From Cellvibrio sp. KY-YJ-3 (GTDB taxonomy: Bacteria; Pseudomonadota; Gammaproteobacteria; Pseudomonadales; Cellvibrionaceae), in assembly GCF_008806955.1 (NCBI RefSeq), contig NZ_CP031727.1, positions 1,612,001 to 1,676,000 of the forward strand: a stretch of 64,000 nt of DNA, given 5' to 3'. Positions 33,888 through 53,623 of the stretch are shown here, in pieces; the stretch's first letter is position 1, and the number at the start of each line of letters is the position of its first letter. The notes beneath the pieces were generated by a model that was not told the DNA's origin, did not search any database, and saw only the letters and a program-made list of their open reading frames with translations. Both the position numbers and the translations under genes were made by a program.

Positions 33888-36800
33888 ATGGTTTTCCATA
33901 AAAATCAAAAGACCGCACATCAGCAGGGCGTCAAGTTTAAAAAATCCATGTTGGCCATGTGCATCATGGCGTTGAGTGTTCCGTCTTTTTCGCAAAGCAC
34001 AGATGAAGAACAGGGTACTGGTGTAGAGGAAATTATTGTTACTGGTGTTCGTGCTGACCTGCAAAACGCGCAGGAAATAAAACGTAATGCCGATACATTT
34101 GTGGACGCAATTTCTGCAGAAGACATTGGTTCTTTGCCTGATCGCAGCGTTCTTGAAGCTATGCAGCGTGTTCCTGGTGTTTCCATTGAGCGTTTCGCCG
34201 CCGCGAATGACCCGGACCACTTCGGTGTAGAAGGTTCGGGTGCAGTGATTCGTGGTATGTCGCAGACTCGCAGTGAGTTTAATGGTCGCGATTCATTCAC
34301 TGCCAACTCTGGTCGTGGTTTGAACTTTCAGGACGTTCCGCCCGAGCTGATGGCTGGTGTGGATATCTACAAAAACCAAACTGCAGATATGATTGAAGGC
34401 GGTATTTCGGGCACTGTGAGCCTGCGTACCCGTAAGCCTTTCGATCAGGACGGTCGCCGTTTTGCTGTGTCTGCAGATGTGACCTATGGCGATATGGTAG
34501 AAGAAGCTACGCCCACTATCTCGGCGCTCTTTAGTGATCGTTGGGATACCGATGTGGGTGAGTTCGGTTTCCTGGTCAATTTATCAGATTCAAAACTGGA
34601 GGCCAGTTCTCACGGTATTCAGACGGATCGTTATGAATTCCGCCGCTTGGAGCCGCGCTTATCTGCGGGCGGCAATGTCCAGTTACCCGGATTCGAGTAT
34701 GCCGAAAACCCTTATGTGTATGACGGCAGTTTTTATTTTTCCGGCCCAAACAGCGGTACCGCAAACATCCCGCCAGTAGGCACGAAGGGGGTGCTTGTTC
34801 CCAACGGTGCCAATATGACGATGAAGAACGACGAGCGTGACCGCACCGGTATTGCTTTGGCCACCCAATGGGAAAGTGCTGACGATACGCTGCTCGCCAG
34901 TCTGCAGTTTATGCGCTCCGATGCAACACTGGCATGGACTGAAAATGCAGTTAAATATCAAACGGGTTTCAATACCGATAGAACTTGGGGCGCCCCTGGT
35001 GAAGAGTATGAGTTTGACGAGAATGGTGTGTTCTTAAACGGATCTTTAGCCGACGTGGCTGATGGCTGGCGTGGTGACGATGACCGTATCCCCCATAACG
35101 TTTCTCCAAGTGCGGGCTGGGGCACCTCTCCTGTTTACGCATTCGGTCACCGTTTCCAGGCGGATAATCGTTACAAGAAAACCGAAACTATCGTCGACGA
35201 CTATGCATTTAATTTGAAGTGGGCGCCAAGCGAAAAATTTGAATTGATTTTTGACTTCCAACACATCGAAGCAGAAACCAACGATGATGACGTAACCTTG
35301 ATGTTGATGACCCACGCCATTATGGATTACGACCTCAGAGGTCTGCCTTCACTGAGTATCAGCAACCCATGGGCGTTTGCTACACCAGAAAATCTGGCAG
35401 CGCATGCGGCTGATGGTCGCGATTATGCAAACGGTGAAGTGCCTTACTTCCAGAACGCCAGCTCTTACAACTACAACGCTGCTATGGATCACTATGAGCG
35501 CAGCGAAGGTCAGTCTGACGCCGTGCGTATCGACGGTACCTATGCATTTGATGATGGTTTCTTCACTAAAGTCAAAGCGGGTTTGCGTGCTGCCGAGCGT
35601 GAGCAAACGGTTCGCAACTCTGCCTACAACTGGGGTCGTTTAGCGCCAATTTGGGATAACCCTGTAGGTTGGTTGGATTCTGCTGCGGTTAAAGACACGC
35701 CAATGGCTCAGGTTACGACACTTGACTGGAGCGACTTCTACCGTGGCGATGTGGTAAGTATTGAAGGCGGCAACAAAATGCTTCACCCAAGTGATGCGCT
35801 GGTCAAGGACTACGCAAACTGGGGAACTTACTTTGCGCCACTGTATAACCCAAGTGACAATGACACCTGTGCGGATGAATGGCGTCCTTCTGCGGAACGC
35901 GTCCAGTCAGAGTGGGATCCGGTTGCAGGCCGCTGTCTGGCGTCTACTGACTTGAACGGTTTCTTCCGCGACAGTGAAATCAACTCCACTACCGAAGAAA
36001 ATCAGGCCGCCTATGTGCGCTTGGACTTTGAAACCGATATTGGCGAGCGTCGCGCCTCCGGTAACATCGGTGTGCGTTACGTGCGTATTACCAACGAGAC
36101 CGCTGGTTTTACAACTTATCCAGAGTTGAGACGCAGTGAAAAACTACCGGCTGATTGGGATCCTCGCAACGTAACGGGTACTGACTTCGACCTGTTTGAT
36201 CCCGAGAATGAATTCCTCGGTTCACCCTCCAACTATGTGGATGATATCTACATTGGCTTTGCGAACGACGCCTATACGCCCAACCTCGCCAAGCGCACTT
36301 ACGATGACATTCTGCCCAGCTTTAACTTAAAGATAGAGCTAACCCCTGAAGTCATAGGTCGTTTTGCAGTATCCAAAGCTATCGCATTGCCGGATATTGG
36401 CGATTTGCGCAACTACACCAACATTGGCAGTAACGATGGCTTCACCTATAACTTCAAAGACCCCTACTGGGGACCAAACAATCCTCACCCGGATACACCA
36501 ATCGATCCTACAACGGGGGAGCGCCATGTCTCTGGTTTACCAGCGACTATAGACCCGACTACTGGTCAGCCCGAGTTCAACGAAGCCGGTAACCCCGTAT
36601 ACAGAGGTCCTGATGGTGAGATTGTTAACCAGCAGCGTATTGTCGATGCGGACAGCATTACCTTCGGTGGCTGGACAGGTTCATCAGGGAACCCGCTGTT
36701 GATGCCGATGGAATCTATTCAATACGATGCATCGTTTGAATGGTATTTCAGTAAAGTGGGTTCATTGACCGCATCCTTCTTCTACAAGGATCTTAAGAAC

Positions 36801-37397
36801 TTCTTCATTAACGGCGCCTACAACCGTGAATTTACCAACCCTGTTTCCGGTGTGACCCAGACAGTGTTTGTATCTGGTCCACAAAACGGTGGTAAGGGTG
36901 AGATGAAAGGGTTTGAATTGGGTTACACCCAGTTCTACGACATGTTGCCAGCGCCGTGGGATGGTTTTGGTATTCAGGCCAACTACTCTTACATTGAAGC
37001 GCGCGGTGTTCCAAACTCCAACCTGGACGGCGGAACTGATTTTGCGTTCGGTGGCGATATTCCGCTACAGGGGCAGTCAGACCATACCGCTAACTTCGTG
37101 TTGATGTATGACAAGAACGACTGGTCGGTACGTCTTGCTTACAATTGGCGTTCGGAATACCTGTTGACCTCTCGCGATGTAATTACCGGCTTGCCGGTTT
37201 ACAACGATGATGCTGGCTTTATGGATGGATCTATTTTTTACAACGTAACGGATAATGTACAGGTCGGCTTCCAGGGCGTTAACTTGCTCAATACAGAAAC
37301 CCGCACCTTTATGCAGGTTGATGATAATCTGAGATTAGGGCGTTCTTGGTTTGTTAACGACCGCCGCTATACCTTCTTGGTACGAGCAACCTTCTAA
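33888..37397 (+). CDS. TonB-dependent receptor, Xanthomonas/Caulobacter type
   Basis: 1169 aa from the ATG at 33888 (AGGGG at the right distance). A signal peptide spans about residues 1-36. The plug domain (about 50-185) begins EEIIVTGVRADLQNAQEIKR and has LPDRSVLEAMQRVPGVSIER; the rest is a 22-strand barrel ending FLVRATF. The size and motifs fit the large carbohydrate-linked group first defined in Xanthomonas and Caulobacter. In those genera such receptors often stand beside tryptophan-halogenase-like genes, as here. It probably imports a ligand tied to the halogenase products or to plant glycans; the ligand is unknown. A terminator separates it from the halogenases. Confidence 0.93.
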   Translation: MVFHKNQKTAHQQGVKFKKSMLAMCIMALSVPSFSQSTDEEQGTGVEEIIVTGVRADLQNAQEIKRNADTFVDAISAEDIGSLPDRSVLEAMQRVPGVSIERFAAANDPDHFGVEGSGAVIRGMSQTRSEFNGRDSFTANSGRGLNFQDVPPELMAGVDIYKNQTADMIEGGISGTVSLRTRKPFDQDGRRFAVSADVTYGDMVEEATPTISALFSDRWDTDVGEFGFLVNLSDSKLEASSHGIQTDRYEFRRLEPRLSAGGNVQLPGFEYAENPYVYDGSFYFSGPNSGTANIPPVGTKGVLVPNGANMTMKNDERDRTGIALATQWESADDTLLASLQFMRSDATLAWTENAVKYQTGFNTDRTWGAPGEEYEFDENGVFLNGSLADVADGWRGDDDRIPHNVSPSAGWGTSPVYAFGHRFQADNRYKKTETIVDDYAFNLKWAPSEKFELIFDFQHIEAETNDDDVTLMLMTHAIMDYDLRGLPSLSISNPWAFATPENLAAHAADGRDYANGEVPYFQNASSYNYNAAMDHYERSEGQSDAVRIDGTYAFDDGFFTKVKAGLRAAEREQTVRNSAYNWGRLAPIWDNPVGWLDSAAVKDTPMAQVTTLDWSDFYRGDVVSIEGGNKMLHPSDALVKDYANWGTYFAPLYNPSDNDTCADEWRPSAERVQSEWDPVAGRCLASTDLNGFFRDSEINSTTEENQAAYVRLDFETDIGERRASGNIGVRYVRITNETAGFTTYPELRRSEKLPADWDPRNVTGTDFDLFDPENEFLGSPSNYVDDIYIGFANDAYTPNLAKRTYDDILPSFNLKIELTPEVIGRFAVSKAIALPDIGDLRNYTNIGSNDGFTYNFKDPYWGPNNPHPDTPIDPTTGERHVSGLPATIDPTTGQPEFNEAGNPVYRGPDGEIVNQQRIVDADSITFGGWTGSSGNPLLMPMESIQYDASFEWYFSKVGSLTASFFYKDLKNFFINGAYNREFTNPVSGVTQTVFVSGPQNGGKGEMKGFELGYTQFYDMLPAPWDGFGIQANYSYIEARGVPNSNLDGGTDFAFGGDIPLQGQSDHTANFVLMYDKNDWSVRLAYNWRSEYLLTSRDVITGLPVYNDDAGFMDGSIFYNVTDNVQVGFQGVNLLNTETRTFMQVDDNLRLGRSWFVNDRRYTFLVRATF

Positions 37398-37421
37398 GCC
37401 TTTTTTGGCTGCTGCAAGGAG

Positions 37422-37450
37422 AGCGCGCCCCCAACAGGGCGCGCTTTTTT
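37422..37450 (+). terminator. Terminator between TonB receptor and halogenase genes
   Basis: Nine perfect pairs AGCGCGCCC / GGGCGCGCT with loop CCAACA and a six-T tail. Confidence 0.88.
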
Positions 37451-37530
37451 GTTTGAAGAGAAAAATTATCGATAAAAATTAGATGTGAAATCGAGCGGTT
37501 AATTACCATCGTGGTCCGGGAGCACTCTCC

Positions 37531-39083
37531 TTGAATAAATCAAGCATAAAAAAAATAGTAATTCTGGGTGGTGGAACTGCGGGTTGGATGACTGCGGCGG
37601 CCCTGTCACGTTTTGTCAAATCCGAGACCACAGAAATTGTGTTAGTGGAGTCCGCGGCGATTGGAACTGTTGGCGTAGGTGAAGCAACTATTCCGCATAT
37701 TCGCGTGTTTAATGACATGCTCGGCATCGACGAAAACGAATTTATGTGCAGAACCCATGCCACCTATAAATTGGGTATCCGATTTGAAGGTTGGGGGGGG
37801 AGTCGAGCGATTATTTGCATCCCTTTGGCGATCATGGGTTCCCCATTAAAGGCATTCCATTTCATCACTACTGGCTGCGTGCCCGTCAGCAGGCAGAGGT
37901 AGAAGCATTTGATCGTTACTCACTGGCGAATGTCATGGCTGCCGGTGAGCGATTTATATATCCCTCTGCTAAACAGGACTCTGTCGAGTCTACATTTTCC
38001 TATGCTTACCATTTGGATGCGGGTGCTTACGCCGTTTTTTTGCGCGACTATAGCGAAGCGCGGGGTGTGCAGCGGGTTGAGGGAGAGGTTGTTAGCGTCA
38101 AACTGAATCAGGATTCTGGTTTTATCGAAAGCCTTAATCTGAGTAATGGAGAAATCATCGCGGGTGATTTTTTTATCGATTGCAGCGGCTTTCGTGCGCG
38201 CTTATTGGGGCAGGAGTTAAAGGTTCCCTTCACCAGTTGGAACCGCTGGTTGCCCTGTGATCGTGCATATGCCATGCCCAGCGAATTAATTGCCGCTATC
38301 CGGCCCTATACCCGCTCCAGTGCAAAGTCAGCTGGTTGGTGTTGGCAAATTCCACTCCAGCATCGCATGGGTAATGGCCACGTTTTCTGTTCATCGTTTT
38401 GTAGCGATCAGCAAGCTGTGGATATTTTGTTGGCACATGTGCAGGGCAAGCCCCTGGCCGATCCGCGCCGGATTGATTTTGAAGCGGGAATGCGTCACCG
38501 GGCGTGGGAAAAAAATTGTGTCTCCATAGGTCTGGCAAGTGGATTTCTTGAGCCGCTTGAATCAACCAGTATTTATTTAATTCAGGTTGGCATATACAAA
38601 TTATTAGAGCTTTTACCTATCTCCAGCGATTTTGAACTCGATGCAAAAGAGTTTAATCGAATGGTTGCTGATGAATACGAAAAAATACGCGACTTCATTA
38701 TTTTGCACTATCACTTAAACAATCGGACGGAAGGTTTCTGGCAGCAAACTGCTAACATGAGTGTGCCCGACTCACTGCAACATAAAATGCAAGTGTTCAA
38801 AGAGAGTGCGGTTGTTGTGGAGTATGATGCAGGTTTGTTTATGCCACCAAGTTGGTTGGCGGTGTATTTGGGTCAGGGCTTTTTTCCTGAAAGGACAGAT
38901 TCGCGCGTTCAACAAATTCCCCCACAAGAACTTCTGCCACTGATCCAAAAAATTCCCAACCATCTACGCAGTCTTGTTGAAAAAATGCCATCGCATATGG
39001 CTGCACTGCAGAAGCTATCAGCAGGGGAAAGGGCAGCGAATTATGTCAAGCCAAGGATGAGTTTGTATGGTGGTGCGCTATGA
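37531..39083 (+). pseudogene. Flavin-dependent tryptophan halogenase, frameshifted at a G8 tract
   Basis: One gene read in two frames: 37531 to about 37800 and then about 37791-39083. The first part has GGGTAGWM (residues 13-20), GVGEATIP (48-55) and the catalytic Lys context THATYKLGI (K80). It continues at WGG and passes through a run of eight G (37793-37800). One extra G restores the frame to WGGESSDYLHPFG, exactly the spacing of the paralogue at 40499. The second part carries the WxWxIP motif (SAGWCWQIP), RRIDFEAGMRHRAW and the C-terminal EPLESTSIYLIQ. If intact it would be about 517 aa. TTG start with GGGAG upstream. Either a sequencing error, a recent mutation or a slippage switch. The next gene overlaps its stop by 4 bp. 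Confidence 0.85.
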
Positions 39084-40477
39084 AATCTATAGGTGTTATC
39101 GGAAATGATATTGCAGCCTGGATGGCTGCTGCATTTTTTGCTGTGCAGCCAGCAAGCCAGCGCCCAAATATATCAATATTCACTGGCGCAAGTCAGGGTT
39201 GTGATGATTCAATTCAAAATCCAATTCCCGACTTTTCCGGCTTTTTGTCGCTTGTGGGTGTATCTGACCAGCAGTTTATTTCTGCCTGTGCAGCCACTCC
39301 GACTTTGGGTACTTGCTATAAAATTTCTTCTCAATATGAGTTGGCGCAAAGTTCACACAATGATTTTTATCATATATGGGGTGAATATGGCTCCCCTCTG
39401 GGCGCTATAGAATTTCACCAGCTTTATATTCGTGCAATGCTCGAGGCCGAACACAGTGACTTGAATGGTTTATCGGTTGCTGCACTGGCAGCCAAAAACA
39501 ATCGTTTTATGTTGCCATCAAGAGATCAGTTATCAATTCGCGCTACCTATCAGACTTCATATAGTTTTTTGACAAAAAACTATATCCAATGGCTGCAGCA
39601 CCTTTGTAAAAAAGCAGGTGTCCAAGAGGATAGTCGTCCAATTAATTATTTATTAAAAAGCACTGATGGCTACCGCATTGAATTTCACAGTGGCGATAAG
39701 GCTGGCGCTGACTTTCTGATAAATACTTGCCCGAAACTGCGCGATCAAGTCGCATCTTGTAACAGTTGGCGGGAATTTATTCCTTTCACTCAAGTGACAC
39801 GCAAAAATACTGCGCAAGAACGGCGGCGCTTGGTGAGTGATGTTGAGTTTGGTCATAATGAATGGCGAATAACCCGTTATGCGGCTGACTCGCAAGAAAC
39901 TACGACCTACGTTTTGCCTGATGAGCCTGTGAGCGAGGAAAACGCCGAGCTTTTTTCGGGCTGCGTAGCAAGTCCGCGTGAAAATCAATTATTACATTTA
40001 GGCAGGGCGTTAATTAACCTGCACTCGCCATTGGTGTGTGAAGTAGATTTAATTTGGATAGCGTTGCGAATGCTGCAGCAATTTTATCCGGCATTGCCTG
40101 ATGGGCCTTCAGCTGCAAGTGAATACAACCAGCGCTTGATTGCAGCTTATGAAAATCTACGTGATTTATCCCAGGCAGTATATATTCAGGTTGAACGAAA
40201 GCTGCCCGGTACGTTTGCTGCCATCAATCATTGCAAAGTGTCTTCCCAGCTTCAGCATAAGTTGGATTTATTTGTGCATCGGGGTAAATTGCCGGCTTAT
40301 GAACATGAAATCTATAAAAGGCAATGGCAGCAATGGCTGCTCTTGGGGTTGGGTGCAAAGCCATCCCGGATTGAGCCTATCACCTTCCATTTGAGTCCGG
40401 CTGAAATGCGCAACGTATTTAATAAAATTAAGTCAGCTGTCAGTTCAGAGGTTGAAACTTGGCCATCGGTCAAATAA
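39080..40477 (+). CDS. Degenerate tryptophan-halogenase-family protein
   Basis: 465 aa; ATG overlaps the previous stop (ATGA), so the two are coupled. The overall order of segments follows the halogenases, but the FAD motif is changed (GVIGNDIAAWMAAAFF instead of GGGTAGWM), no Lys context and no WxWxIP are present, and GVGEATIP is missing. The C-terminal half still aligns in outline (NEWRITRYA, VEDL-like VCEVDLIWIALRMLQQFYP and a tail with SSQLQHKLDLFVHRG). It is therefore unlikely to bind FAD or halogenate and may be a partner subunit. Homology is judged by eye. Confidence 0.65.
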   Translation: MKSIGVIGNDIAAWMAAAFFAVQPASQRPNISIFTGASQGCDDSIQNPIPDFSGFLSLVGVSDQQFISACAATPTLGTCYKISSQYELAQSSHNDFYHIWGEYGSPLGAIEFHQLYIRAMLEAEHSDLNGLSVAALAAKNNRFMLPSRDQLSIRATYQTSYSFLTKNYIQWLQHLCKKAGVQEDSRPINYLLKSTDGYRIEFHSGDKAGADFLINTCPKLRDQVASCNSWREFIPFTQVTRKNTAQERRRLVSDVEFGHNEWRITRYAADSQETTTYVLPDEPVSEENAELFSGCVASPRENQLLHLGRALINLHSPLVCEVDLIWIALRMLQQFYPALPDGPSAASEYNQRLIAAYENLRDLSQAVYIQVERKLPGTFAAINHCKVSSQLQHKLDLFVHRGKLPAYEHEIYKRQWQQWLLLGLGAKPSRIEPITFHLSPAEMRNVFNKIKSAVSSEVETWPSVK

Positions 40478-40498
40478 AAAACGGGAGATAACCCACTT

Positions 40499-42025
40499 AT
40501 GCATAGTTTTATCAACAATCAGGACAATCATATCAAAAGAGTGATTATTGTCGGCGGTGGTACTGCGGGCTGGATGTCAGCGGCGACCTTGTCCAGATAC
40601 TTAAAAAATAACAGATACGAAATTATTCTTATTGAATCCGATGATATAGGTACTGTGGGTGTTGGTGAGGCTACCATTCCACAGATTCAATTATTTAATA
40701 AATCATTGAATATAGATGAAGACGATTTTATTCGTAAAACACATGCGACGTTTAAGCTTGGAATTGAATTTGTAAACTGGGGGCAGAAAGGCGATAGCTA
40801 TATTCATGCATTTGGCAGTGTTGGCCACGATATGGAGTCGCTTCCTTTTTATCACTATTGGTTGAAACTGCAAAAGCAGGGGCGCTCCAAGGATATTGGC
40901 GATTATTGTTTAAATACCCTGGCGAGTAAAAAAAATAAATTTATGCGTTCAATTGATGCGGGCAATTCGCCGTTATCCAACATTGCCTATGCATTTCATT
41001 TTGATGCGGGGCTCTACGCGAAATATTTAAGAGAGTATTCCGAAAAGCTGGGTGTTAAACGTGTGGAAGGTAAAATTGTTGAGGTGAATTTAGAGTCCTC
41101 CACCGGGTATATTCGTGCGGTTACCTTGGCTAGCGGTGAACAAGTTGCCGGTGATTTGTTTATCGACTGCTCTGGCTTTCAAGGGTTATTAATTGCCCAG
41201 TCACTCGGTGTTGGTTATCAGAATTGGTCTCATTGGCTGCCTTGCGATAGTGCATGGGCAGTACCGAGCCAAAAGTTGGATCCATTGCCGTCATACACTC
41301 GTGCTACCGCGCATTCAGCGGGTTGGCAATGGCGAATTCCATTGCAGCACAGAACTGGTAATGGGCATGTTTTTTCCAGTAAATTTATGGACGAGGAGGA
41401 AGCTAAAAAAATACTGTTAAAAAATATTCAGGGGGAGAAACTTGCTGAGCCAAGGTTGATTAAATTCGTCACGGGCCGACGCGATAAATTTTGGCACAAG
41501 AACTGTATTGCCATTGGTTTGGCTTCGGGTTTTATGGAGCCACTGGAATCTACCAGTATTCACTTAGTGCAAAGTGCCCTAGCCAGAATTATGGCGATGT
41601 TTCCGCACAAAAAATTTAATCAAGACGAAATTGATTCATACAATGAACAGGTTGGTTTTGAATACGAAAAGATCCGCGATTTTTTAATTTTACATTACAA
41701 AGTCACTGAGCGAAATGATTCGGCGTTCTGGAATTACTGCCGCGAAATGGATATACCTCCGTCGCTTCAACAAAAAATAAATGTATTTAAAGCTAATGGT
41801 CATGTATTCCGGTTTAACAATGAGTTATTTAATGAAATTAGTTGGGTCGAGGTAATGCTGGGGCAGCGCATGACAACTGAGGGTTATCACCCGCTAGTAG
41901 ATGTATTGCCGGAGGAAGAATTTGATCGACGTATGGCGCAAGTTAAACGCGTAATCGATACCGCCATCGACTATATGCCAAGTCATGCTGAATATATCGA
42001 GAAGACCTGTAAATCCACGGTTTGA
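40499..42025 (+). CDS. Flavin-dependent tryptophan halogenase family protein
   Basis: 508 aa, the usual length. GGGTAGWM (residues 19-26) and GVGEATIP (53-60) bind FAD; THATFKLGIEF holds the catalytic Lys (K86, equivalent to K79 of PrnA); SAGWQWRIP (about 272-280) is the WxWxIP signature that separates halogenases from monooxygenases; GFMEPLESTSIHLVQ is the substrate/FAD-linking segment. It needs reduced flavin from a separate reductase, none of which is encoded nearby. The substrate may be free tryptophan, indole or a peptide-bound residue and cannot be set from sequence. It is about 21 bp after the degenerate paralogue. Confidence 0.9.
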   Translation: MHSFINNQDNHIKRVIIVGGGTAGWMSAATLSRYLKNNRYEIILIESDDIGTVGVGEATIPQIQLFNKSLNIDEDDFIRKTHATFKLGIEFVNWGQKGDSYIHAFGSVGHDMESLPFYHYWLKLQKQGRSKDIGDYCLNTLASKKNKFMRSIDAGNSPLSNIAYAFHFDAGLYAKYLREYSEKLGVKRVEGKIVEVNLESSTGYIRAVTLASGEQVAGDLFIDCSGFQGLLIAQSLGVGYQNWSHWLPCDSAWAVPSQKLDPLPSYTRATAHSAGWQWRIPLQHRTGNGHVFSSKFMDEEEAKKILLKNIQGEKLAEPRLIKFVTGRRDKFWHKNCIAIGLASGFMEPLESTSIHLVQSALARIMAMFPHKKFNQDEIDSYNEQVGFEYEKIRDFLILHYKVTERNDSAFWNYCREMDIPPSLQQKINVFKANGHVFRFNNELFNEISWVEVMLGQRMTTEGYHPLVDVLPEEEFDRRMAQVKRVIDTAIDYMPSHAEYIEKTCKSTV

Positions 42026-42139: not shown

Positions 42140-43258
42140 TCAATCCAAATAAGCATCCACTGTACGAATAGTGCCGTCGTCGTTGTGAATTAATTCGGTG
42201 ACTTTTACGTTGCGCAAATAGGTTGTGCCGCCGGAGAGTTGGCTGTCGTGGTAAAACAAAAACCATTTGCCGTCCACTTCCACAATGGAGTGGTGATTGG
42301 TCCAGCCGAGCACTGGCATGAGCACGATACCTTGATGAGTAAAGGGGCCGTAGGGGCTATCACCAGTGGCGTAAGCAATGTAATGGGTGTCGCCGGTGGA
42401 ATAGGAAAAATAATATTTTCCGTTAAATTTGTGCAACCAGGCACCTTCAAAAAAGCGGCGATTAGTGTCGCTGCCCAGTAAGGGTTTGCCGGCGTTATCC
42501 AGAATTTGAATGTCGCGCGGGGCTTCTGCGAGCTGCAGCATGTTGTCGTTCAGGCGCGCTACTTTCGGGCTGAGTGCAGGTTCATTGCTCGCGGGATATT
42601 TATCTTCTTCCACATAACTGCCGCTTATCCAGCGTTGTAATTGTCCGCCCCAAATGCCGCCGAAATATAAGTAGTGACTGCCATCGTCGTCTTTAAAAAC
42701 GCTGGGGTCGATACTGAAACTACCTTCAATGGGATTGGGCTCTGCTGCAAAGGGGCCGCTTGGAGAATCGCTGGTAGCGACACCGATGCGGAAAATGCCG
42801 TCTTTATCTTTTGCGGGGAAATATAAAAAGAATTTTCCCTCTTTTTCTGCGGCATCCGGTGCCCACAGCTGGCGACTGGCCCATGGAATATCTTCCAATG
42901 TTAATGCGACGCCATGGTCGGTAACTTCACCGCCGATTTTTTCCATAGACAATACGTGATAATCCTTCATATCAAATTTGTCGCCTTCACCGTCACTGGT
43001 GATACCGCTGTCGATGTCGTGTGACGGGTAAATATAAATGCGGCCATTGAACACGTGGGCCGATGGATCGGCAGTGTAAATATGACTCACCAGCGGTTGG
43101 CCGATAAATTTTGTGGTGTCGATTGCCGGTGCGCTTTCGCTGCTGGCGGCGCTGCTGATGGTTGTAGCGGTGCCTGGCTGGGCGTTTTTATCGCCGCAGC
43201 CACTGCTCAAAAGTGCGGCGCCTAGCGCCAGGGTTAGTAAGCTTTTAGAAAAATTCAT
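42140..43258 (-). CDS. GH43 family glycoside hydrolase, lipoprotein
   Basis: 372 aa. A lipoprotein signal ends in LSSGC (Cys about 21), so it is anchored in a membrane of the envelope. The five-bladed propeller landmarks of GH43 are visible: YTADPSAHVFNGRIYIYPS (catalytic base Asp region, about 62-80), GSFSIDPSVFKDDDG (pKa-modulating Asp) and FEGAWLHKFNGKYYFSYS (general acid Glu). Such enzymes act as alpha-L-arabinofuranosidases or beta-xylosidases on arabinoxylan side chains or oligosaccharides. It is the third gene after GH115 and manD, 54 bp after manD. Confidence 0.88.
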   Translation of the reverse strand: MNFSKSLLTLALGAALLSSGCGDKNAQPGTATTISSAASSESAPAIDTTKFIGQPLVSHIYTADPSAHVFNGRIYIYPSHDIDSGITSDGEGDKFDMKDYHVLSMEKIGGEVTDHGVALTLEDIPWASRQLWAPDAAEKEGKFFLYFPAKDKDGIFRIGVATSDSPSGPFAAEPNPIEGSFSIDPSVFKDDDGSHYLYFGGIWGGQLQRWISGSYVEEDKYPASNEPALSPKVARLNDNMLQLAEAPRDIQILDNAGKPLLGSDTNRRFFEGAWLHKFNGKYYFSYSTGDTHYIAYATGDSPYGPFTHQGIVLMPVLGWTNHHSIVEVDGKWFLFYHDSQLSGGTTYLRNVKVTELIHNDDGTIRTVDAYLD

Positions 43259-43312
43259 TCGCTGCTCCGGTCATTATTTTTAATGGATTATGGTGTGGTA
43301 ACACCAACCATG

Positions 43313-44521
43313 TTACCAGTGCCAGAGAGTACCATCTTCCAAGCGGTTCACAGGCAAACACGCGCGTTTATAGGGGTATTTAGCTGCCAGTTTTTCGTCG
43401 ATGTCCACACCGTGGCCGGGCGTTTCGCCGGGGGTGAAGTAACCGCGATTGAATTCATACGCATGTGGAAATACTTCGTCCATTTGCGCGCTGTGGGCCA
43501 TATGCTCCTGAATGCCGAAATTAGGCACCCAATAATCAAAATGCAGGGCGGCGCCCATACATACCGGCGATAAATCCGTCGCGCCGTGAAAGCCGGTACG
43601 CACGTTAAACAGGCTGGCAAAATCGGCAATGCGACGTACGTGGGTGATGCCGCCAGCGTGCACAATGGTCGAGCGAATGTAATCAATGAGCTGATTCTGG
43701 ATAAGCTCGCGGCAATCGTGAATGGAATTAAATACTTCGCCTACCGCCAATGGTGTGGTGGTGTGCTGGCGAATTAATTTAAACGATTCCTGGTTTTCCG
43801 CAGGCACCGCATCTTCCATCCAGAATAAACGATAGGGTTCCAAATCTTTGCCCAAGCGCGCCGCTTCGATTGGTGTCAAGCGATGATGTACGTCATGCAA
43901 TAAATGAATGTTATTGCCGAATTCTTTGCGTACCTGCGCAAATACTTCGGGAATAAAATTCAAATATTTTTCGGTGGACCAAATTTCGGTAGAGGGCAAA
44001 TCGGCATCTGCCGGTTCGTAACTTTTATCGCCTTTGGCAACGCCGTAGGTCTTTTCAATGCCAGGGATGCCGCATTGAATACGAATTGCATCGTAACCCT
44101 TTTCGCGCGCTTTACGCACGGCGTCCAGGGTGGAGTCCAGGTCTTTGCCATTGGCATGTGTGTAGGTGAGGATGCGCTCGCGACTTTTTCCTCCGAGCAA
44201 TTGATAGAGCGGCATGTTGGCGAGTTTGGCTTTAATGTCCCACAGCGCCACATCAATTGCCGCCAGTGCAGTCATACCTACTGGCCCGCGACGCCAATAA
44301 GCGCCGCGATAAAAAAATTGCCAGATGTCTTCAATTTGTTGTGGGTCGCGACCAATTAATGCCGGGACTAAATAATCCTCCAAATAGGACACCACCGCTT
44401 TTTCGCGGCCATTGAGTGTTGCATCGCCAATCCCATACACACCTTGGTCGGTCGTAATTTTTAGTGTGACAAAATTTCTGCCGGGGCAGGTCACAATGAC
44501 TTTAGCATCAACAATTTTCAT
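43313..44521 (-). CDS. manD: D-mannonate dehydratase (enolase superfamily)
   Basis: 402 aa, exactly the ManD length. Active-site residues fall at the positions known for the family: R147, Y159, Asp210 and His212 ([11 protein letters not shown]), Glu236 (MEDAVPAE), Glu262 (VGEVFNS) and the C-terminal Trp402 (GTLWHW). It converts D-mannonate to 2-keto-3-deoxygluconate with Mg2+, in the cytosolic glucuronate pathway. Encoded between GH115 and GH43, it supplies the step beyond glucuronate and fructuronate; UxaC and UxuB are not in the window. Confidence 0.95.
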
Positions 44522-44577
44522 TCAATGGCGTCTCAAAAAAGTGTCTGTAAGATTTTTGTTTAAAAAATGAATAACAA

Positions 44578-47481
44578 TTAATAGCGCTTGCTGGGTGGCG
44601 GTCCCAGATAGCTGGGTTGTAAACCGCCGGTATCCAGCACCAGTTTTTGCAGCGTGACTGCCGGGTCCAGGCTATAAATGCGCAGTTTGTGCGCGCCTGC
44701 TCGTGCAACCTTGTGTTTGGTAATGCCAAGTCGCACATCGCTGCGCACGGTTTCCGCCCAAGTGGCATCGCTCATGTCGGCCACCAAATTCACAATTTGT
44801 GCTGGCTCATCATCAATCGCCACCGCGTAGCGCAAACCGCGTTCGGGCATAAACGGCCAGCTCGGGGCAAAAAATCCCTGTAAGGTAAATTCACCACTGC
44901 TGTGGGTGTAAATATCGTATTCAAGGTAGGGCGCGTTGGTGGCATCGTTAAATTGCCAATCGCCAATCGGGTACACCGACATGGACGATATAGTACGGCC
45001 GTGCTCGGGGATTTTTTCCCAGCGTAAATGACCACTCGCGCCCTGGCGACTAAAATCTTCCGCCTCGATAGCGATGTAGCCATCGGCTTCGGCAAAACCG
45101 CGCAATGCTTTTTTGTTGATCGGGTTATTTACGATTTCCACGCCGATGCTCGCACTGCCCCAACCGGTGCCGCTAATGTCAATGCGACCGGTGGCACGAC
45201 CTATGGGCGCTTTGCTCCAGTCGATGCTCACATCCAGCTGCGCGCCCTTGTCAACTTGTATACTAGTCTTGCTCAGTATAATCCAGGGCGTAGTGGTTTT
45301 GGCAGTGGCGAGGAAGGATTCTTTACCTTTATTAAAAATTTCAATCACGCGCGACTGTGTTCCCAAACGATCAAAACGCGGCAGTAGATAATTGCCGGGC
45401 TTGGGCCAGGCGGAGGCGACACCTTCAATCGCTATGCCCATTTCCGCTGAATTATGTGGCTCATAATGATGGGTGACGGGTAGCGTATCTTCCGGTGGGT
45501 GATTCCAGTGGCTGTAACCAATGTGCGATTGCGACATCATATGGTTCCACTTGCCGCCGTTGAACTGGTGGTATTCCTGTTCCAGCGCGGCATCTTTGGC
45601 AAATAATTCGCGCACTTTATCGGCGTAATCATTGGTGGTGGCGCGGGCCTGTGCGGCATACAAATGATTTTTGGCTTGCGCGTTATAAAGTGCGGTAATG
45701 TTGGCGCTGGCGGTGGTGGGGAATAACACCAATTGATAAAACGCCGCGCGCTGTGCAGCGGGCAACTGTGCGTAAATTTTTTCAGCGCGTGCAACGTAAT
45801 CATTCATCTCGGCGGTAACGCGTTCTGCTTCGCGATAATGCAGTTGGCTATAAGTGGTGGCGTCTTGCAGTTCCGGTTTGCGGCGCAAATTGTGGCGCGT
45901 GTAGCCGGTCATAATCGCGGCAATTTCGTCGGCGTGTTGCGCACCAAATTCACGCTCAGCCCACAGGCGGGCGAATTCGGGTATGCGCTCTTTGGGCCAG
46001 GCCTCCGGGTTCCATGCCATGTTCAGGAAAAATTCAATCGGGTACTCCATGGGTTTTAAATCGCCTACATTGACGATCCAGATTTGGTTTGCATCAAAGG
46101 TGTAGGCGAGGTGCATTTGCTCCCAAATTTTGGCGATGGAAATAGTGTTAATCCAGCGATAGGAACGTGGGCCGCCAACATAATCAAAATGATAATAAAC
46201 GCCGGCACCGCCACTGCGTTTGCGTTCATCGGGTGTGGGTAGCCTGCGAATATTGCCCCAGTTGTCATCGCACCAGAGCAGGATGACATCGTCCGGCACA
46301 CGCATGCCACGCTCGTAAAAACCCTGCACTTCTTTGTACAGCGCCCAGACTTGTGGCACTTTTGTGAGCTGATCTTTGCCAAACACATCGCTAATGATGT
46401 TGCGCTGGTCGCTGACGATTTTTTCCAACAATCCGATGTTTTCACCTTCACTCATCGGCTCGTCTTGTTGGCCGCGCATGCCCAGGGTGTAAATGCTTTC
46501 GTAGGGTTTGTTGCGCGTTGCACCATCAACCCAAAACTTATATAAATTTTTCGGATTTTTGGAATATTCCCAGGGGCCTTTGCCGTAGCGGTTCCACTCT
46601 TTGTCAGCGCGCATCATGGGTTCGTGGTGCGAGGTGCTCATGACTATGCCGTATTCATCGGCGAGGATCATATTTTGTGGGTCATCATCGGCAAATGCGT
46701 TATTCCACATCGCTGGCCATAAAAAATTGGCTTTTAAGCGCAGTAATAACTCGAACACCTTTTCATAAAATTCTGCGTTGTAGTTGCCATATTTTTCAGT
46801 GACCCAGTTGGTGAGGGCGGGTGCTTCATCGTTTAAAAAAATACCGCGGTATTTCACTTTTGGAATTTCAACAACATTTATTTTTTTGTCGATAAAAATA
46901 GTCGCTTTTTGTTTAACGGGCACATCCGCCCACCAATACCAGGGCGATACCCCAATCTGCTCGCTCAGGCTGTAAATGCCATACATAGTGCCGCGTTTAT
47001 TGGCACCGACAATCACGAGCGCGCGCTCTACATCGGCAAAAGGTTTATCAACTACCACGACTTGAAAGGCATCCCATTGATTCTGGATTTTGCTGACATC
47101 CATTTTTTTATTGGCAATTAATTGCGCGATAAGTTGGCTGCTGCCCAGTGTTCCCACCAACACCAATTGCTTTTGCCCGGCGAGAGTATTTTTTAACACC
47201 GGTTGTTTGCCGGTCACTTTTTCAATATCGCTTTGCAAATTTTTTGCCGCACGCACTACGCCGGGTAATTCGCTGCTGTCGATAACAATATCCAGAGCTT
47301 GCTGTTTATCCACCAGCACCAGATTGCCGCGTGCACTGGTTGCCAGCCAAGGCTCCTCTCCCAGCGCCCAGCTGGTGGGGCTGACTATCGCCAATAGCAG
47401 CAGTAAATACCGCAAGGGGGTAATTAAGCGGGGTGTGGTGAGCCAGCGCAAAACCGGCGTGAGGCGGAGTGAGTGCGCCAT
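44578..47481 (-). CDS. GH115 alpha-glucuronidase (xylan side-chain)
   Basis: 967 aa from the ATG at 47481 (GAGGA about 8 bases upstream; the TTG at 47574 is too early and overlaps an operator). A signal peptide ends near residue 37 (PTSWALG). The GH115 body has GTMYGIYSLSEQIGVSPWYW, FLWPAMWNNAF and HHEPMMRADKEW in the catalytic module and a C-terminal beta-rich domain. GH115 enzymes remove 4-O-methyl-glucuronic acid from internal xylose units of xylan. It is the first gene of an operon with manD and GH43. A GTATAC palindrome lies 62 bp upstream of the start. Confidence 0.92.
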   Translation of the reverse strand: MAHSLRLTPVLRWLTTPRLITPLRYLLLLLAIVSPTSWALGEEPWLATSARGNLVLVDKQQALDIVIDSSELPGVVRAAKNLQSDIEKVTGKQPVLKNTLAGQKQLVLVGTLGSSQLIAQLIANKKMDVSKIQNQWDAFQVVVVDKPFADVERALVIVGANKRGTMYGIYSLSEQIGVSPWYWWADVPVKQKATIFIDKKINVVEIPKVKYRGIFLNDEAPALTNWVTEKYGNYNAEFYEKVFELLLRLKANFLWPAMWNNAFADDDPQNMILADEYGIVMSTSHHEPMMRADKEWNRYGKGPWEYSKNPKNLYKFWVDGATRNKPYESIYTLGMRGQQDEPMSEGENIGLLEKIVSDQRNIISDVFGKDQLTKVPQVWALYKEVQGFYERGMRVPDDVILLWCDDNWGNIRRLPTPDERKRSGGAGVYYHFDYVGGPRSYRWINTISIAKIWEQMHLAYTFDANQIWIVNVGDLKPMEYPIEFFLNMAWNPEAWPKERIPEFARLWAEREFGAQHADEIAAIMTGYTRHNLRRKPELQDATTYSQLHYREAERVTAEMNDYVARAEKIYAQLPAAQRAAFYQLVLFPTTASANITALYNAQAKNHLYAAQARATTNDYADKVRELFAKDAALEQEYHQFNGGKWNHMMSQSHIGYSHWNHPPEDTLPVTHHYEPHNSAEMGIAIEGVASAWPKPGNYLLPRFDRLGTQSRVIEIFNKGKESFLATAKTTTPWIILSKTSIQVDKGAQLDVSIDWSKAPIGRATGRIDISGTGWGSASIGVEIVNNPINKKALRGFAEADGYIAIEAEDFSRQGASGHLRWEKIPEHGRTISSMSVYPIGDWQFNDATNAPYLEYDIYTHSSGEFTLQGFFAPSWPFMPERGLRYAVAIDDEPAQIVNLVADMSDATWAETVRSDVRLGITKHKVARAGAHKLRIYSLDPAVTLQKLVLDTGGLQPSYLGPPPSKRY
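45254..45267. promoter_or_regulatory. Intragenic copy of the GTATAC operator within the GH115 gene
   Basis: ACTTGTATACTAGT, identical over 14 bases to the site in the GH115 promoter, inside the coding sequence about 2.2 kb downstream of the start. It could be an auxiliary operator that blocks elongation or supports looping, or a chance match. Confidence 0.35.
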
Positions 47482-47836
47482 GAAACGTTCCTCGGGATAG
47501 GGGGGAATAAGCGTGGGTGAAATTACAGCATAGATGATGTGTACTTGTATACTAGTTAAGCCTGGTATGCCCAAAGGGTTAACGCGGTTGGCAGCGGTGA
47601 TTAAGGATTACTTAAGCTTTGCCCGTTAAAATCCGCCTCGGTTGACGCGGGCTGCTGGCTTGGTTAGTGTCGGCTACCTTGTGGGTGTTTGGTGTCATGC
47701 CTGCGCAGAATCTGTGGTCTGGTTGGTTATATAACCTTTCCTTACGGTTCTTAACCCAATGTTGGGTGGCAATGTTTTATTAGTGGCCTGTAGTTCGTTT
47801 TTTACTTTCAATTTTGTCCTCTTAAGGAGAATCGTT
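47482..47836. promoter_or_regulatory. Divergent promoter region between GH115 operon and PepSY gene
   Basis: 355 bp holding both upstream regions. The GTATAC operator is nearest the GH115 side. AAGGAG at 47824-47829 is the PepSY ribosome site. No clear core promoter pair could be assigned. Confidence 0.4.
47543..47556. promoter_or_regulatory. GTATAC operator upstream of the GH115 operon
   Basis: ACTTGTATACTAGT is a near-perfect palindrome around GTATAC, 62 bp before the GH115 start. Sites of this type (TTGTATACAA-like) are used by GntR/FadR-branch regulators such as UxuR and ExuR in uronate metabolism. A related copy precedes the xylanase gene. Confidence 0.6.
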
Positions 47837-48633: not shown

Positions 48634-48662
48634 TCATGTAATTACTTTTCTCTGCTAACAAC

Positions 48663-48697: not shown

Positions 48698-48714
48698 ATA
48701 CGCTGCTTGGCTTT

Positions 48715-50580
48715 TTAATTACACGCTGTGCCTTCCAAACCATCGGCAAATCCGCGCAGTGAGGGTTTATCGTTGTAGTTGTTGTCGAATAATAATGGCC
48801 AGGCAATTGCTTCACCGTTATAGGCGGCCGTTGCGGTTGTTAGCCAGGTGTTGGCATCGGTGGTGCCCCACACGCTAATACCGCCGCGCTGTGCTGCGGG
48901 CACTGTGTCCATATAAGCTTTCACGATTTCGCAGTAGCGTTTCTTTTGTGCCAAAGCGACAGTGTTGGTGAAGCTGGTAATTTTGTTGCCAGGCCAGCCG
49001 CCGCTGTAGGGGTTGTTTACCGCTACATCCAATTCGGTGATTTTTACTTTCAGGCCCTTATCCACCACTTTTTTCATCGCGGCACTGATGCTGGCGATGC
49101 TTGGGTAATCCATAAACACATGCATCTGGAAACCCACACCGTCAATGGGAATGCTGCGTGTTTGGAAGTCGGTCAGCATTTCAATCATCTTGGTGGTTTT
49201 GGCGTTGTTTTGGTCAATGTTGTAATCGTTGTAGTAGAGAATCGCACTGGGATCAGCAGCACGTGCCGCCTGGAAAGCCTTTTCGATGTAAATCGAGCTA
49301 TTGCCACTTTTTACATAAAAGGGAGAATCGGTGGTGCGGAAGTTAGCCACCGGAGAGCCGTCGTTGATGGCCTCATTCACAACATCCCAGCTCACCACAT
49401 TACCCTTGGCTTTGAAGTGGGTAACCACCTGCGTCACATGGTCTTCAACCTCAGCGATAAAGTCTGCTGCCGAGCCGCCCCAGTTTTTCATGAAGTTAGG
49501 CACTTGGTAGTCTGAATGCCAAACCAGCGCGTGACCGTGTACGTTGATGTTGTTGTCTTTGGCGTAATCCACAAAGGTGTCCGCATTGGTGAAGGTGAAG
49601 TTGCCATTGCTCGGCTGCAGGTAGCTCATTTTCATGATGTTGCCTGCCGTCATCTCGCCAAAATGCTTTTCCACCACGGCTTGTTCCGAGGTATTGGTCA
49701 CGATGTTAAAGCTGGGGTCGTCGTTGTTGGTGACTGCCGCGCCGATTGGGAATGCGGCCAAGGCTTGCAGTCGGGTCACATTGGCAGAGTAAACGCTACC
49801 GGTGCTTGAGCTTTGTGCCGATGAGCTACTTGCTGCTTGTGCAAGGGTAACGGTGACGCTTTTGATGGTTACGACGCCGGTTGGTGTTCCCTTGGCTTGC
49901 ACGCCGACTTGCACGTCAAACTCTGTCTGATTGAACTTTTTGTCGCCTTCAGTAACGGTGCAGGAGATGGTTGCATCTTCCCCAGCCGTGAATAGCTCGT
50001 TGCCCGCCCAGCAGCCCCATTCACCTGGATAGCTGCCGCCCTTGATTTGCGCGAATGGTTGTAAGCTGGCTCCGCTGGTTTTGAATTCGCTGCTGACATT
50101 AACCACCATAGTAATGATGGCATCTTCCAGCTGAATGGGTTTGAGCATATCAGCCACGGCGCCTATGTTATCGCCGCTGGCGGTAAAGCTGACCCCATCG
50201 CTATTGAGAGTTACGCCGCTATTGCCAGTGCCATTGCCGCGCCAACCGCTGGTCATATCCAGGGTTAACGCTGTTGCACTGGCCGCGCTACTGGAGCTAG
50301 CCGGAGCCGAGCTGCTGGCGGGCTCGCTGCTCGCTGCTACTGAGCTAGGGGCGATGGAGCTGGCTGCTTCCGAGGCGATACTGCTTGCCGGGGTTGAGCT
50401 GGGCTCGACCGAGCTGGCCGCAATACTCGCGGGGGCACTGGAGCTGCTGTTGGTTGCACTGGTATTGGCACTTGAGTTGTTGGCGCTGGAGTTATTGTTA
50501 TCGCCACCACCCGAGCCGCCGCAGGCGCTGAGCAAAAGCGTAAATAGACCGATTGATAAGAGTTGATGTACTTGCTGCAT
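48715..50580 (-). CDS. xyn10C: GH10 endo-1,4-beta-xylanase lipoprotein with CBM15
   Basis: 621 aa. Order: lipoprotein signal (LLSACGG, Cys about 20), a Ser/Ala/Asn-rich linker (about 30-103), a CBM15 module (about 105-250: ALTLDMTSGWRGNGTGNSGV, then SFTASGDNIGAVADML), a second Ser-rich stretch, and the GH10 barrel (about 275-620). Catalytic acid/base Glu is in SWDVVNEAIN (about 401) and the nucleophile Glu in KITELDVAV (about 515); HGHALVWHSDYQVP is another signature. It cuts the xylan backbone from the cell surface. The layout matches Cellvibrio japonicus Xyn10C, so the symbol is by similarity. A GTATAC site lies 67 bp upstream of the start. Confidence 0.94.
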   Translation of the reverse strand: MQQVHQLLSIGLFTLLLSACGGSGGGDNNNSSANNSSANTSATNSSSSAPASIAASSVEPSSTPASSIASEAASSIAPSSVAASSEPASSSAPASSSSAASATALTLDMTSGWRGNGTGNSGVTLNSDGVSFTASGDNIGAVADMLKPIQLEDAIITMVVNVSSEFKTSGASLQPFAQIKGGSYPGEWGCWAGNELFTAGEDATISCTVTEGDKKFNQTEFDVQVGVQAKGTPTGVVTIKSVTVTLAQAASSSSAQSSSTGSVYSANVTRLQALAAFPIGAAVTNNDDPSFNIVTNTSEQAVVEKHFGEMTAGNIMKMSYLQPSNGNFTFTNADTFVDYAKDNNINVHGHALVWHSDYQVPNFMKNWGGSAADFIAEVEDHVTQVVTHFKAKGNVVSWDVVNEAINDGSPVANFRTTDSPFYVKSGNSSIYIEKAFQAARAADPSAILYYNDYNIDQNNAKTTKMIEMLTDFQTRSIPIDGVGFQMHVFMDYPSIASISAAMKKVVDKGLKVKITELDVAVNNPYSGGWPGNKITSFTNTVALAQKKRYCEIVKAYMDTVPAAQRGGISVWGTTDANTWLTTATAAYNGEAIAWPLLFDNNYNDKPSLRGFADGLEGTACN

Positions 50581-50754: not shown

Positions 50755-50774
50755 CAGGGTAAAAACGAAGAGGT

Positions 50775-52187
50775 TTATCCCTCCATTTGCTCCAGTTCTT
50801 TGCCTTTGGTTTCTTTGACCAGCTTGAGGACAAAGAAGATCGAGAAGGCCGAGAAGAACGCGTAAATACCGTAAGCACCCGGCAAGCCGAGTGATGAGGC
50901 CAGCAGGTAGGGGAAGGTGAAGGTGATGAGGAAGTTGGCGCCCCATTGTGCCAAACCAGCCACCGCCAGCGATGAACCGCGAATCTGGTTGGGGAACATT
51001 TCGCCCAACATAATCCACATCACCGGGCCCCAGGATACGTTGAAGAAAATCACGTAGAGGTTGGCGGCAACCAATGCCAAGGTGCCCATTTCGGTTGATA
51101 GCATCAACTTGCCTTGCTCATCCAGCGGTGCGCCATAAAAGGCGATAGCCACCAAGCTCAGGGTCACGGTCATGCCCAGCGAGCCAATCCACAGCAGCGG
51201 TTTGCGACCGATTTTGTCCACCACCAAAAAGGTGATAAAGCAGGCACCAATACTCACCACACCAGACACCACGTTGATTAACAGTGAGTCGGATTCAGAG
51301 AAGCCCGCTGCTTGCCACAGCACTGAGCCGTAGTAGAACACCACGTTGATGCCCACAAATTGCTGCAGTACCGCAAGGCCAATACCAACCCACACAATGG
51401 AGCGCACACGGTTGGTCGTTTTGTCGATCAAATCCGCAAGGCGCGGTTTGTGATGGTCAGCGGCGAGTGAGGCTTCAATCTCGCTGACCTTGGCGGTGCC
51501 CTCGACGGCGCCATAGAGTTTCACCAAGACGGTTTTGGCTTTATCGACCTGGCCAGAGGCCATCAAAAAGCGCGGGCTTTCCGGGATAAATAACAGCGCC
51601 ACAAAAAAGATTACCGCGGGGATCAGTTCCATCCAGAACATCCAGCGCCAGGTTTCGTAACCCAGCCAGAATACCGCCAGCGATGAACCGGCAAATTTAG
51701 CGAGGAAGTAGTTGCTGACAAATGCGGCGGTTAAGCCGGTGATGATGGCGACCTGTTGCACGGAACTGAGTTTGCCGCGATAGCGTGCCAGCGCTACTTC
51801 ACTGATATACGCCGGGCACATGACCGAGGCTGCACCTACCGCCAAACCACCAAGCACGCGGTAAATAACAAATTCAATCGACCCGGTGGCAATGCCTGAG
51901 CCCCAAGCCGACACGATAAAAAATACCGCCGCGACAATCAAAATCGCCTTGCGGCCATATTTATCGGCCAGAGTACCGGCAAAAAACGCACCGACCGCAC
52001 AGCCAAGCAACATGGAAGACACTTCAAAACCGGCGGTATTGATGTTGAACGCCGAGCGCAAGCCATCTACCGTGCCGTTGATAACGCCGCTATCAAAGCC
52101 AAAAAGAAAGCCGCCGATAGTGGCGATGACACTGATCAAAATAATAAACGGCGTATTCGCCTGATTGTTGGTACTGGTCTCGTTCAT
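50775..52187 (-). CDS. MFS sugar/H+ symporter (XylE-like)
   Basis: 470 aa with twelve predicted membrane helices. Sugar-porter signatures: GFLFGFDSGVINGTVDGL in helix 1, DKYGRKAIL after helix 2, ESPRFLMASGQVDKA (PESPR motif) in the central loop, QQFVGINVVFYYGS in helix 7 and GRKPLLWIGS. It probably imports xylose or a related monosaccharide with protons. AGGTATCACC precedes the ATG. It lies between the xylanase gene and the Nudix-type regulator, close to xylB-xylA, which supports xylose. Confidence 0.92.
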   Translation of the reverse strand: MNETSTNNQANTPFIILISVIATIGGFLFGFDSGVINGTVDGLRSAFNINTAGFEVSSMLLGCAVGAFFAGTLADKYGRKAILIVAAVFFIVSAWGSGIATGSIEFVIYRVLGGLAVGAASVMCPAYISEVALARYRGKLSSVQQVAIITGLTAAFVSNYFLAKFAGSSLAVFWLGYETWRWMFWMELIPAVIFFVALLFIPESPRFLMASGQVDKAKTVLVKLYGAVEGTAKVSEIEASLAADHHKPRLADLIDKTTNRVRSIVWVGIGLAVLQQFVGINVVFYYGSVLWQAAGFSESDSLLINVVSGVVSIGACFITFLVVDKIGRKPLLWIGSLGMTVTLSLVAIAFYGAPLDEQGKLMLSTEMGTLALVAANLYVIFFNVSWGPVMWIMLGEMFPNQIRGSSLAVAGLAQWGANFLITFTFPYLLASSLGLPGAYGIYAFFSAFSIFFVLKLVKETKGKELEQMEG

Positions 52188-53244: not shown

Positions 53245-53623
53245 GAGCAATGTCCTCAAGGGCTTTGCATTTTATGGATAAGGTTTGGTGTGAGCACAAC
53301 CGATCAGCTCAGGTTGCGGGCATTGTATAAGCCATGTTCGCAATGGTCGAGCCTTAGATACATGGCGCCTCATTCCCGTTACTGGCGTGGAGGTGCTATT
53401 CAGGTATAGGTGATTGCGCGCCATTTGCGCCAGTGACAGCGGCCAGCTTTATAAAAATTAACGTGCGGCCTCTTGTTGTCAGTTGGACAATAAGATATTC
53501 TGGTCATATAAGTTGAAGCGCTGGTATTTGGTCTGCACCCGATATCCGCATTCGCACAGGTTTTTGCCTGCAAAAACTTGTTAAACGAAAGTTTCCTAAA
53601 CCTATAAAAGAAAACGAGTCCCT
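53245..53623. promoter_or_regulatory. Divergent control region between regulator and xylB
   Basis: 379 bp between the two start codons. It contains the palindrome and core promoter listed separately. The xylB leader would be about 105 bases from that promoter. No coding content seen. Confidence 0.5.
53476..53512 (+). promoter_or_regulatory. Candidate xylB promoter with overlapping operator
   Basis: The inverted repeat TTGTC-AGTTG-GACAA (53476-53490) overlaps a -35-like TTGGAC (53483-53488); after 18 bp comes TATAAG (53507-53512). A repressor bound at the palindrome would block the -35. The divergent Nudix-type regulator is the obvious candidate. Confidence 0.5.

Follow-up and report, generated by a model that had tools for sequence, protein, structure and literature searches.

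A 64,000-nucleotide stretch of the genome of Cellvibrio sp. KY-YJ-3 (assembly GCF_008806955.1, contig NZ_CP031727.1, positions 1,612,001 to 1,676,000; hereafter the window) carries a TonB-dependent receptor (T) followed by three members of the flavin-dependent halogenase family, H1, M and H3. Comparison with related loci suggests that this cassette combines the receptor and a core halogenase (H3) with an accessory, obligate H1-M pair, most likely a heteromer of one active and one inactive subunit, a reading that we hold with moderate confidence. The case is built on conserved gene order, loss of catalytic motifs, one-to-one pairing of H1 and M in the examined loci, grouping of each on one branch and purifying selection in close pairs, together with the fold predicted for the M of the window; on this basis we infer the physical complex, the use of cofactor, the substrate and the ligand of the receptor. 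The new element is a catalytically dead partner that has been conserved; both halogenases and receptor loci belong to kinds already known. The four genes are:

33888..37397, + strand: TonB-dependent receptor (T), TonB-Xanth-Caul subfamily (TIGR01782, PF00593, PF07715)
37531..39083, + strand: H1, flavin-dependent halogenase split between two frames (37531-37902 and 37791-39083), with a PF04820 match on each
39080..40477, + strand: M, pseudo-halogenase of 465 amino acids (PF04820, 113 bits; structural model)
40499..42025, + strand: H3, intact flavin-dependent halogenase of 508 amino acids (PF04820, 658.8 bits)

Open reading frames and profile matches confirm every item of the gene list in the original prediction, namely a receptor, a frameshifted halogenase, a degenerate paralogue, an intact halogenase and an ATGA overlap.

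A conserved receptor-halogenase cassette

The open reading frame of the receptor spans 33882-37397, and its in-frame ATG at 33888 is also the start of the orthologue in a genus mate (L069). The protein scores 661.6 bits against TIGR01782 (cut-off 310), has both a plug (PF07715) and a barrel (PF00593), and is 54-70% identical to the receptors of four relatives. Merging of 34 halogenase and 36 receptor profile matches leaves the genome, a single 4.49 Mb contig, with some 30 genes of the halogenase family and 35 receptors above the TIGR01782 cut-off. As many as 22 of the 30 halogenase-family genes lie within 5 kb downstream of such a receptor on the same strand. When the 35 receptors were instead placed at random 10,000 times, the mean was 0.59 and the maximum 6, so the halogenases are not near receptors by chance. 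Receptor-halogenase neighbours have been noted in other bacteria. The receptor of this genome closest to that of the window (L095, contig 1: 627266-630439; 1090 bits) has no halogenase-family match nearby.

A receptor-alignment scan of named genomes gave 142 relatives, the best 80 of which were taken as loci; L068, L070 and L106 were removed as duplicates of L170, L177 and L076, while cross-species near-copies (for example, several Alteromonas records) were retained. Genera in which the order receptor-H1-M-H3 is found include Cellvibrio, Gilvimarinus, Catenovulum, Paraglaciecola, Rheinheimera, Sphingopyxis and Sphingomonas. Two genus mates (L068 and L069) share the identical four-gene order together with the hflKC-hisZ-purA flank, and the order is found in other genera with other flanks (L070 and L072). 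A second complete cassette (L075, contig 1: 460000-479000) and a receptor-H1-M doublet (L079, contig 1: 3120000-3138000) occur in the Cellvibrio sp. KY-YJ-3 genome itself. The neighbourhood proposed in the original prediction is therefore real, as the 22 of 30 genes indicate, and conserved, with the cassette present in several genera; its presence in relatives was a check set beforehand.

Behind 125 receptors, three halogenase-family genes were found in 34 cases, two in 10, one in 33 and none in 48, some of the short runs being gene-calling misses. In the 34 triplets, the catalytic motifs at positions 1, 2 and 3 numbered 33, 1 and 34 for GxGxxG, 33, 10 and 34 for the catalytic Lys, 34, 0 and 34 for WxWxxP and 34, 0 and 34 for the catalytic Glu; the position-1 gene that falls short is the broken H1 of the window. 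Because runs in L155, L165, L166, L174, L181, L183, L184 and L186 had been missed or shortened by a simple gene caller, by the limit on gaps or by the same-strand rule, the genes were recounted in six frames, giving 47 H1, 47 M, 80 H3 and 23 other halogenases in 93 loci. All four motifs are present in 46 of 47 H1-class genes (the exception again being the broken copy), in 80 of 80 H3-class genes, the window's H3 included, and in none of the 47 M. Of the 23 other genes, 11 have the four motifs; in ten more WxWxxP carries G in place of P, and the last two are fragments.

In this six-frame set H1 was followed by M in 47/47 cases and M was preceded by H1 in 47/47, whereas H3 came after M in 39/47 and no halogenase did so in 8/47. 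A second set was assembled by H1 similarity alone from 369 genomes of the class, 398 of the phylum and 143 of the family (overlapping), using the best matches and at most 30 loci per search. Its 76 loci comprised 43 H1, 26 H3 and 7 ambiguous genes by a set threshold, the ambiguous ones being left out of the counts. Within a flank of about 1.5 kb, all 43 H1-class genes were followed by a halogenase-family gene lacking WxWxxP, which in 42 cases also lacks the Glu. Nine of the 43 are shared with the first set and 34 are new, seven of these coming from outside the class. None of the 26 H3-class genes was followed by a degenerate halogenase (three were followed by an intact one and 23 by none in the flank). 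As for the ambiguous genes, the next gene was a degenerate halogenase at L211, a half-degenerate one at L190 and an intact one at L216, and the other four had no halogenase after them.

The arrangement in Glaciecola sp. KUL10 (L155), with receptor and H3 on one strand and H1-M on the opposite strand, indicates that H1-M behaves as a unit. A four-base overlap occurs at H1-M in 17 of the 34 triplets, compared with 4 of 34 at M-H3, which suggests translational coupling of H1 and M.

The degenerate halogenase M and its relation to H1

In the window, the start of M overlaps the end of H1 by four bases (ATGA), and M lacks GxGxxG, WxWxxP and the catalytic Glu. Across the 47 M of the first set, WxWxxP was never found, Glu was found twice (one case, L144, seemingly misaligned), GxGxxG twice and Lys ten times; the corresponding numbers for the 43 H1-following genes of the second set were 0, 1, 11 and 9. 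The second gene of L244 keeps two motifs and lacks WxWxxP and Glu. In the pair at L190 (G418), the second gene is half-degenerate, having kept Lys and WxWxxP and lost GxGxxG and Glu; it is possibly an early stage of M.

M nevertheless belongs to the halogenase family: PF04820 matched each of the 30 M proteins that were scanned (E ≤ 0.001). Its reading frames are open in the 34 triplets (420-548 amino acids), a sample in which broken frames would partly have evaded the gene caller. M diverges fast, the window's copy being about 30% identical to its nearest orthologues compared with 73% for H3. In H3 numbering, column information in M peaks at 101-175 and 426-475, with 1.84-1.90 bits per block of 25 columns, and is low near the catalytic motifs; the minima are at 401-425 (0.66 bits) and 301-325 (0.97 bits).

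An AlphaFold2 model of the window's M, built from 53 aligned sequences, has a mean predicted local distance difference test (pLDDT) score of 92.7, although the alignment included 13 H1 and H3 rows that may bias the model toward a halogenase fold. The top Foldseek matches were BrvH, a Pseudoalteromonas halogenase (9luq) and Xcc4156. Superposition on BrvH (VIA-align; Z 42.0, root-mean-square deviation 2.0 Å over 450 residues, 17% identity) places the modelled M in the halogenase fold, as do Z values of 36-40 against PrnA, RebH and PyrH. M was also considered as a phage-type protein and this was rejected, the sole sign being a weak match to the PHROG tryptophan-halogenase family.

The two pieces of the window's H1 (37531-37902 and 37791-39083) match PF04820 with 125.6 and 463.3 bits, and the longer was placed in the H1 clade. 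The frame switches at a run of eight G (37793-37800), the sole G/C run of at least seven in the window. This run is absent from the four H1 orthologues compared, and relatives carry an intact H1. The catalytic motifs are present in the window's copy but divided between two frames, so that no single continuous frame encodes the halogenase. The break may be an assembly error, a recent mutation or phase variation.

A tree of 155 rows puts the H1 genes and the M genes each in a starred set of 41, made up of 34 triplet rows, 6 doublet rows and 1 other row; 25 of the 33 single halogenases group with H3. A mixture-model tree of 76 rows puts H1 (24 rows) and M (24 rows) each on one side of a branch, with support of 95 and 100, respectively, in the Shimodaira-Hasegawa-like approximate likelihood ratio test (SH-aLRT). 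Selection was measured as the ratio of non-synonymous to synonymous substitution rates (dN/dS) in 24 listed pairs with M identity above 50%, of which 13 were unsaturated (dS < 1); the receptor and H3 rows of L114, which has two cassettes, were mispaired and therefore unused. In those 13 pairs dN/dS of M was 0.10-0.48, higher than the corresponding H1 value by a factor of about 1.1 to 2.2. Partial correlations of distances among 33 cassettes were 0.707 for H3-T, 0.405 for M-H1, 0.354 for H1-H3, 0.25 for M-H3, 0.066 for H1-T and -0.1 for M-T; the M-H1 value was reached by none of 2000 permutations. Pairs share members, and neither the pairs nor the distances in these tests are independent. The description of M as a degenerate paralogue thus stands as far as the loss of catalytic motifs is concerned, but M is a member of a conserved family that goes with H1, and not a copy in decay.

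PrnA, RebH and PyrH are homologous to H1 and H3, and their fold is shared by the M model. They differ in their free-tryptophan lid motif: the Trp4 substrate-lid patterns set out in PMC8269204 are missing from 33 of 33 H1, 34 of 34 H3 and 34 of 34 M, which does not fit halogenases of free tryptophan. The same paper reports such an absence for group C and BrvH. The nearest solved structures to H3 are 9luq, 6y1w (Xcc4156) and 6frl (BrvH), and both H3 and an intact H1 (L170) align with BrvH and Xcc4156 over most of their length (E ≤ 5e-123). The missing lid motif and these nearest structures suggest that the substrate of H1 and H3 is other than free tryptophan, and perhaps larger.

Another difference from PrnA, RebH and PyrH is that the scanned neighbours include no secondary-metabolite genes. 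No non-ribosomal peptide synthetase, polyketide synthase or flavin-reductase family occurs in the Pfam matches of 18 sequences from the receptor to 62526, a scan that leaves aside a few small open reading frames and the upstream genes. This agrees with the original view that the locus does not resemble an antibiotic cluster.

Xylan-utilization genes and neighbouring oxygenases

Profile scans revealed xylan-utilization genes just downstream of the cassette, which the original prediction had missed; they are listed here together with an arylamine-N-acetyltransferase-family gene further down:

42140..43258, - strand: glycoside hydrolase family 43 (GH43) glycosidase (PF04616, 115.1 bits)
43313..44521, - strand: D-mannonate dehydratase ManD (NF043051, 747.4 bits; cut-off 550)
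44578..47574, - strand: GH115 family protein, alpha-glucuronidase type (PF15979, 532.6 bits)
48715..50580, - strand: GH10 xylanase with a family 15 carbohydrate-binding module (CBM15) (PF00331, 333.3 bits; PF03426, 316 bits)
50775..52187, - strand: major facilitator superfamily sugar transporter (PF00083, 357.8 bits)
52513..53259, - strand: NUDIX/winged-helix regulator, AraR/NrtR-like, candidate regulator of the locus (PF21906, PF19368, PF00293)
53624-55108, + strand: FGGY carbohydrate kinase, which clusters by BLAST with presumed xylulokinases (PF00370/PF02782)
55166-56506, + strand: xylose-isomerase-like protein (PF01261)
58431-59225: arylamine-N-acetyltransferase-family gene, downstream of the xylose genes (PF00797, 195.9 bits)

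The region 42140-56506 therefore has the gene content expected for xylan utilization, with families of xylanase, glucuronidase and xylosidase type alongside genes for the catabolism of xylose. As the cassette adjoins these genes, the receptor most likely imports xylan-derived oligosaccharides, by guilt by association. In the 47 M loci, cluster labels in flanks of unequal length include GH10 in 10, GH3 in 10, GH115 in 8, xylulokinase in 6 and xylose isomerase in 6. The carbohydrate-utilization (CUT) loci of Xanthomonas similarly place a TonB receptor beside glycan-degrading genes, although the word 'halogenase' does not occur in the main text of the paper describing them (PMC1790865).

Genes of other families also adjoin such halogenases. 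DUF6445 (PF20043; for example, L170:18108-18791) is common behind receptor-halogenase genes and occurs in 13 of the 47 M loci; in the Cellvibrio sp. KY-YJ-3 genome, four of its six copies lie within 1 kb of a halogenase. From its model (pLDDT 93.4), which has modest fold matches (best E 2.5e-5, template modelling score about 0.5 or less), and from a conserved HxD..H..R pattern, it looks like a 2-oxoglutarate (2OG)-Fe(II) oxygenase resembling prolyl hydroxylases. Seven of the eight SapC (PF07277) genes of the genome are within 300 bases of a halogenase gene, and Cupin_8 genes adjoin such halogenases as well.

Possible roles of the H1-M pair

In the mechanism we favour, T would be a receptor, probably for xylan-derived oligosaccharides, and H3 the core halogenase that goes with it. 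H1 would be a halogenase-type enzyme dependent on reduced flavin adenine dinucleotide (FADH2), probably with an open active site, and would carry the chemistry. M would be a non-catalytic subunit of halogenase fold, having lost WxWxxP and the catalytic Glu and mostly GxGxxG and Lys too, and would be retained because H1 needs it. The two would form a heteromer, often by way of coupled translation, in which M may give substrate docking, stability or control.

Several points weigh against this mechanism. The 47/47 pairing is partly circular, because the triplets supplied the H1, M and H3 profiles and cassette-carrying receptors served to fetch the loci; the second set is only a partial answer, its genomes being related and only best matches having been fetched. 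A single origin of M is likely but not proven, because the trees were quick and the M rows are long. The dN/dS pairs exclude the window's M, which at about 30% identity to its nearest relatives is too diverged for measurement, and the H1-H3 partial correlation (0.354) is little below that of M-H1 (0.405). To judge from their sequences, some M that keep GxGxxG (2/47 and 11/43) or Lys (10/47 and 9/43) may bind FAD. H1 is frame-broken in the window, so the H1-M pair may be non-functional in this strain. Finally, only neighbouring genes tie the cassette to xylan, and in several M loci the flank contains no labelled xylan gene.

It is conceivable, if somewhat doubtful, that M acts without forming a complex, as a repurposed soluble protein (a binder of ligand or product, or a store or sensor of FAD) in the same pathway as H1. 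The conservation pattern of M, high at 101-175 and 426-475 and low around the catalytic motifs, is such as a binding role would leave, and 11 of 43 M in the second set have kept GxGxxG. The strict order of H1 then M, and a four-base overlap commoner at H1-M than at M-H3, favour a subunit over a binder.

Two further alternatives concern the target of the enzymes, for which the original prediction had offered an imported aromatic ligand or a plug peptide of the receptor as possibilities. They are unlikely to act, as halogenases or hydroxylases, on plant-cell-wall aromatics (ferulate or lignin fragments) imported with xylan. Xylan genes do adjoin the cassette, both in the window and in several relatives, and the arylamine-N-acetyltransferase-family gene (58431-59225) lies further downstream, but the same enzyme family is found beside many other receptors of the genome, and no feruloyl-esterase family occurs in the Pfam matches of the scanned flank.

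Slightly less probable again is that the target of H1, M and H3 is not an imported compound but the receptor or another envelope protein, modified by peptidyl halogenation or hydroxylation. BrvH does not accept tryptophan and has an open site that may take larger substrates (PMC5945002), and the lysine of Xcc4156 is solvent-accessible (PMC7336383); both are in keeping with a protein target. So are a weak profile match of M to a peptidyl-tryptophan dihydroxylase (7ctq, E 3.9e-7), the neighbouring Cupin_8/JmjC and DUF6445 proteins, which are or resemble 2OG-oxygenase types that include protein hydroxylases, and the tracking of receptor distances by those of H3 (0.707). A crude comparison of tryptophan content speaks against this reading within the genome, where receptors with a halogenase are not enriched, having 13.4 Trp per 1000 residues (10 receptors) compared with 13.7 for those without (24). 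Over all loci the values were 17.2 (77) and 15.2 (48; p 0.002), a weakly positive difference confounded by descent.

That M is a relic, a decaying duplicated halogenase that stays only through its position between two useful genes, is very improbable: its fast divergence (about 30% identity to nearest orthologues, compared with 73% for H3) would suit decay, but this is largely refuted by open frames, dN/dS values that stay under 0.5 in the 13 pairs with dS < 1, a confident model and the regular presence of M after each H1 examined, even where no H3 follows (8/47).

BrvH has a second halogenase gene upstream (42.7% identity), and the consulted portion of PMC5945002 tells of no degenerate partner, unlike H1-M; 'TonB' does not occur in the main text of the BrvH and Xcc4156 papers (PMC5945002 and PMC7336383). 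Titles and the starts of abstracts in the open-access literature on halogenases and TonB receptors, with part of PMC11337851, revealed no such cassette, although prior publication is still possible, and no open-access paper was found that combines 'halogenase' with 'pseudoenzyme'. Overall, the observation behind the original prediction is confirmed and its interpretation partly supported.

A bolder proposal, which at present seems rather improbable, is that H1-M represents an undescribed class of two-subunit flavin-dependent halogenase, in which a fast-evolving M is specialized for a large substrate (the receptor protein or a receptor-bound oligosaccharide), and that outer-membrane sugar uptake in many Proteobacteria needs halogenation or hydroxylation. 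H1-M offers a clean natural example of a conserved pseudoenzyme, and a two-subunit halogenase is directly testable. If a dead partner regularly accompanies one halogenase clade, anyone assaying only the active subunit may be looking at half an enzyme.

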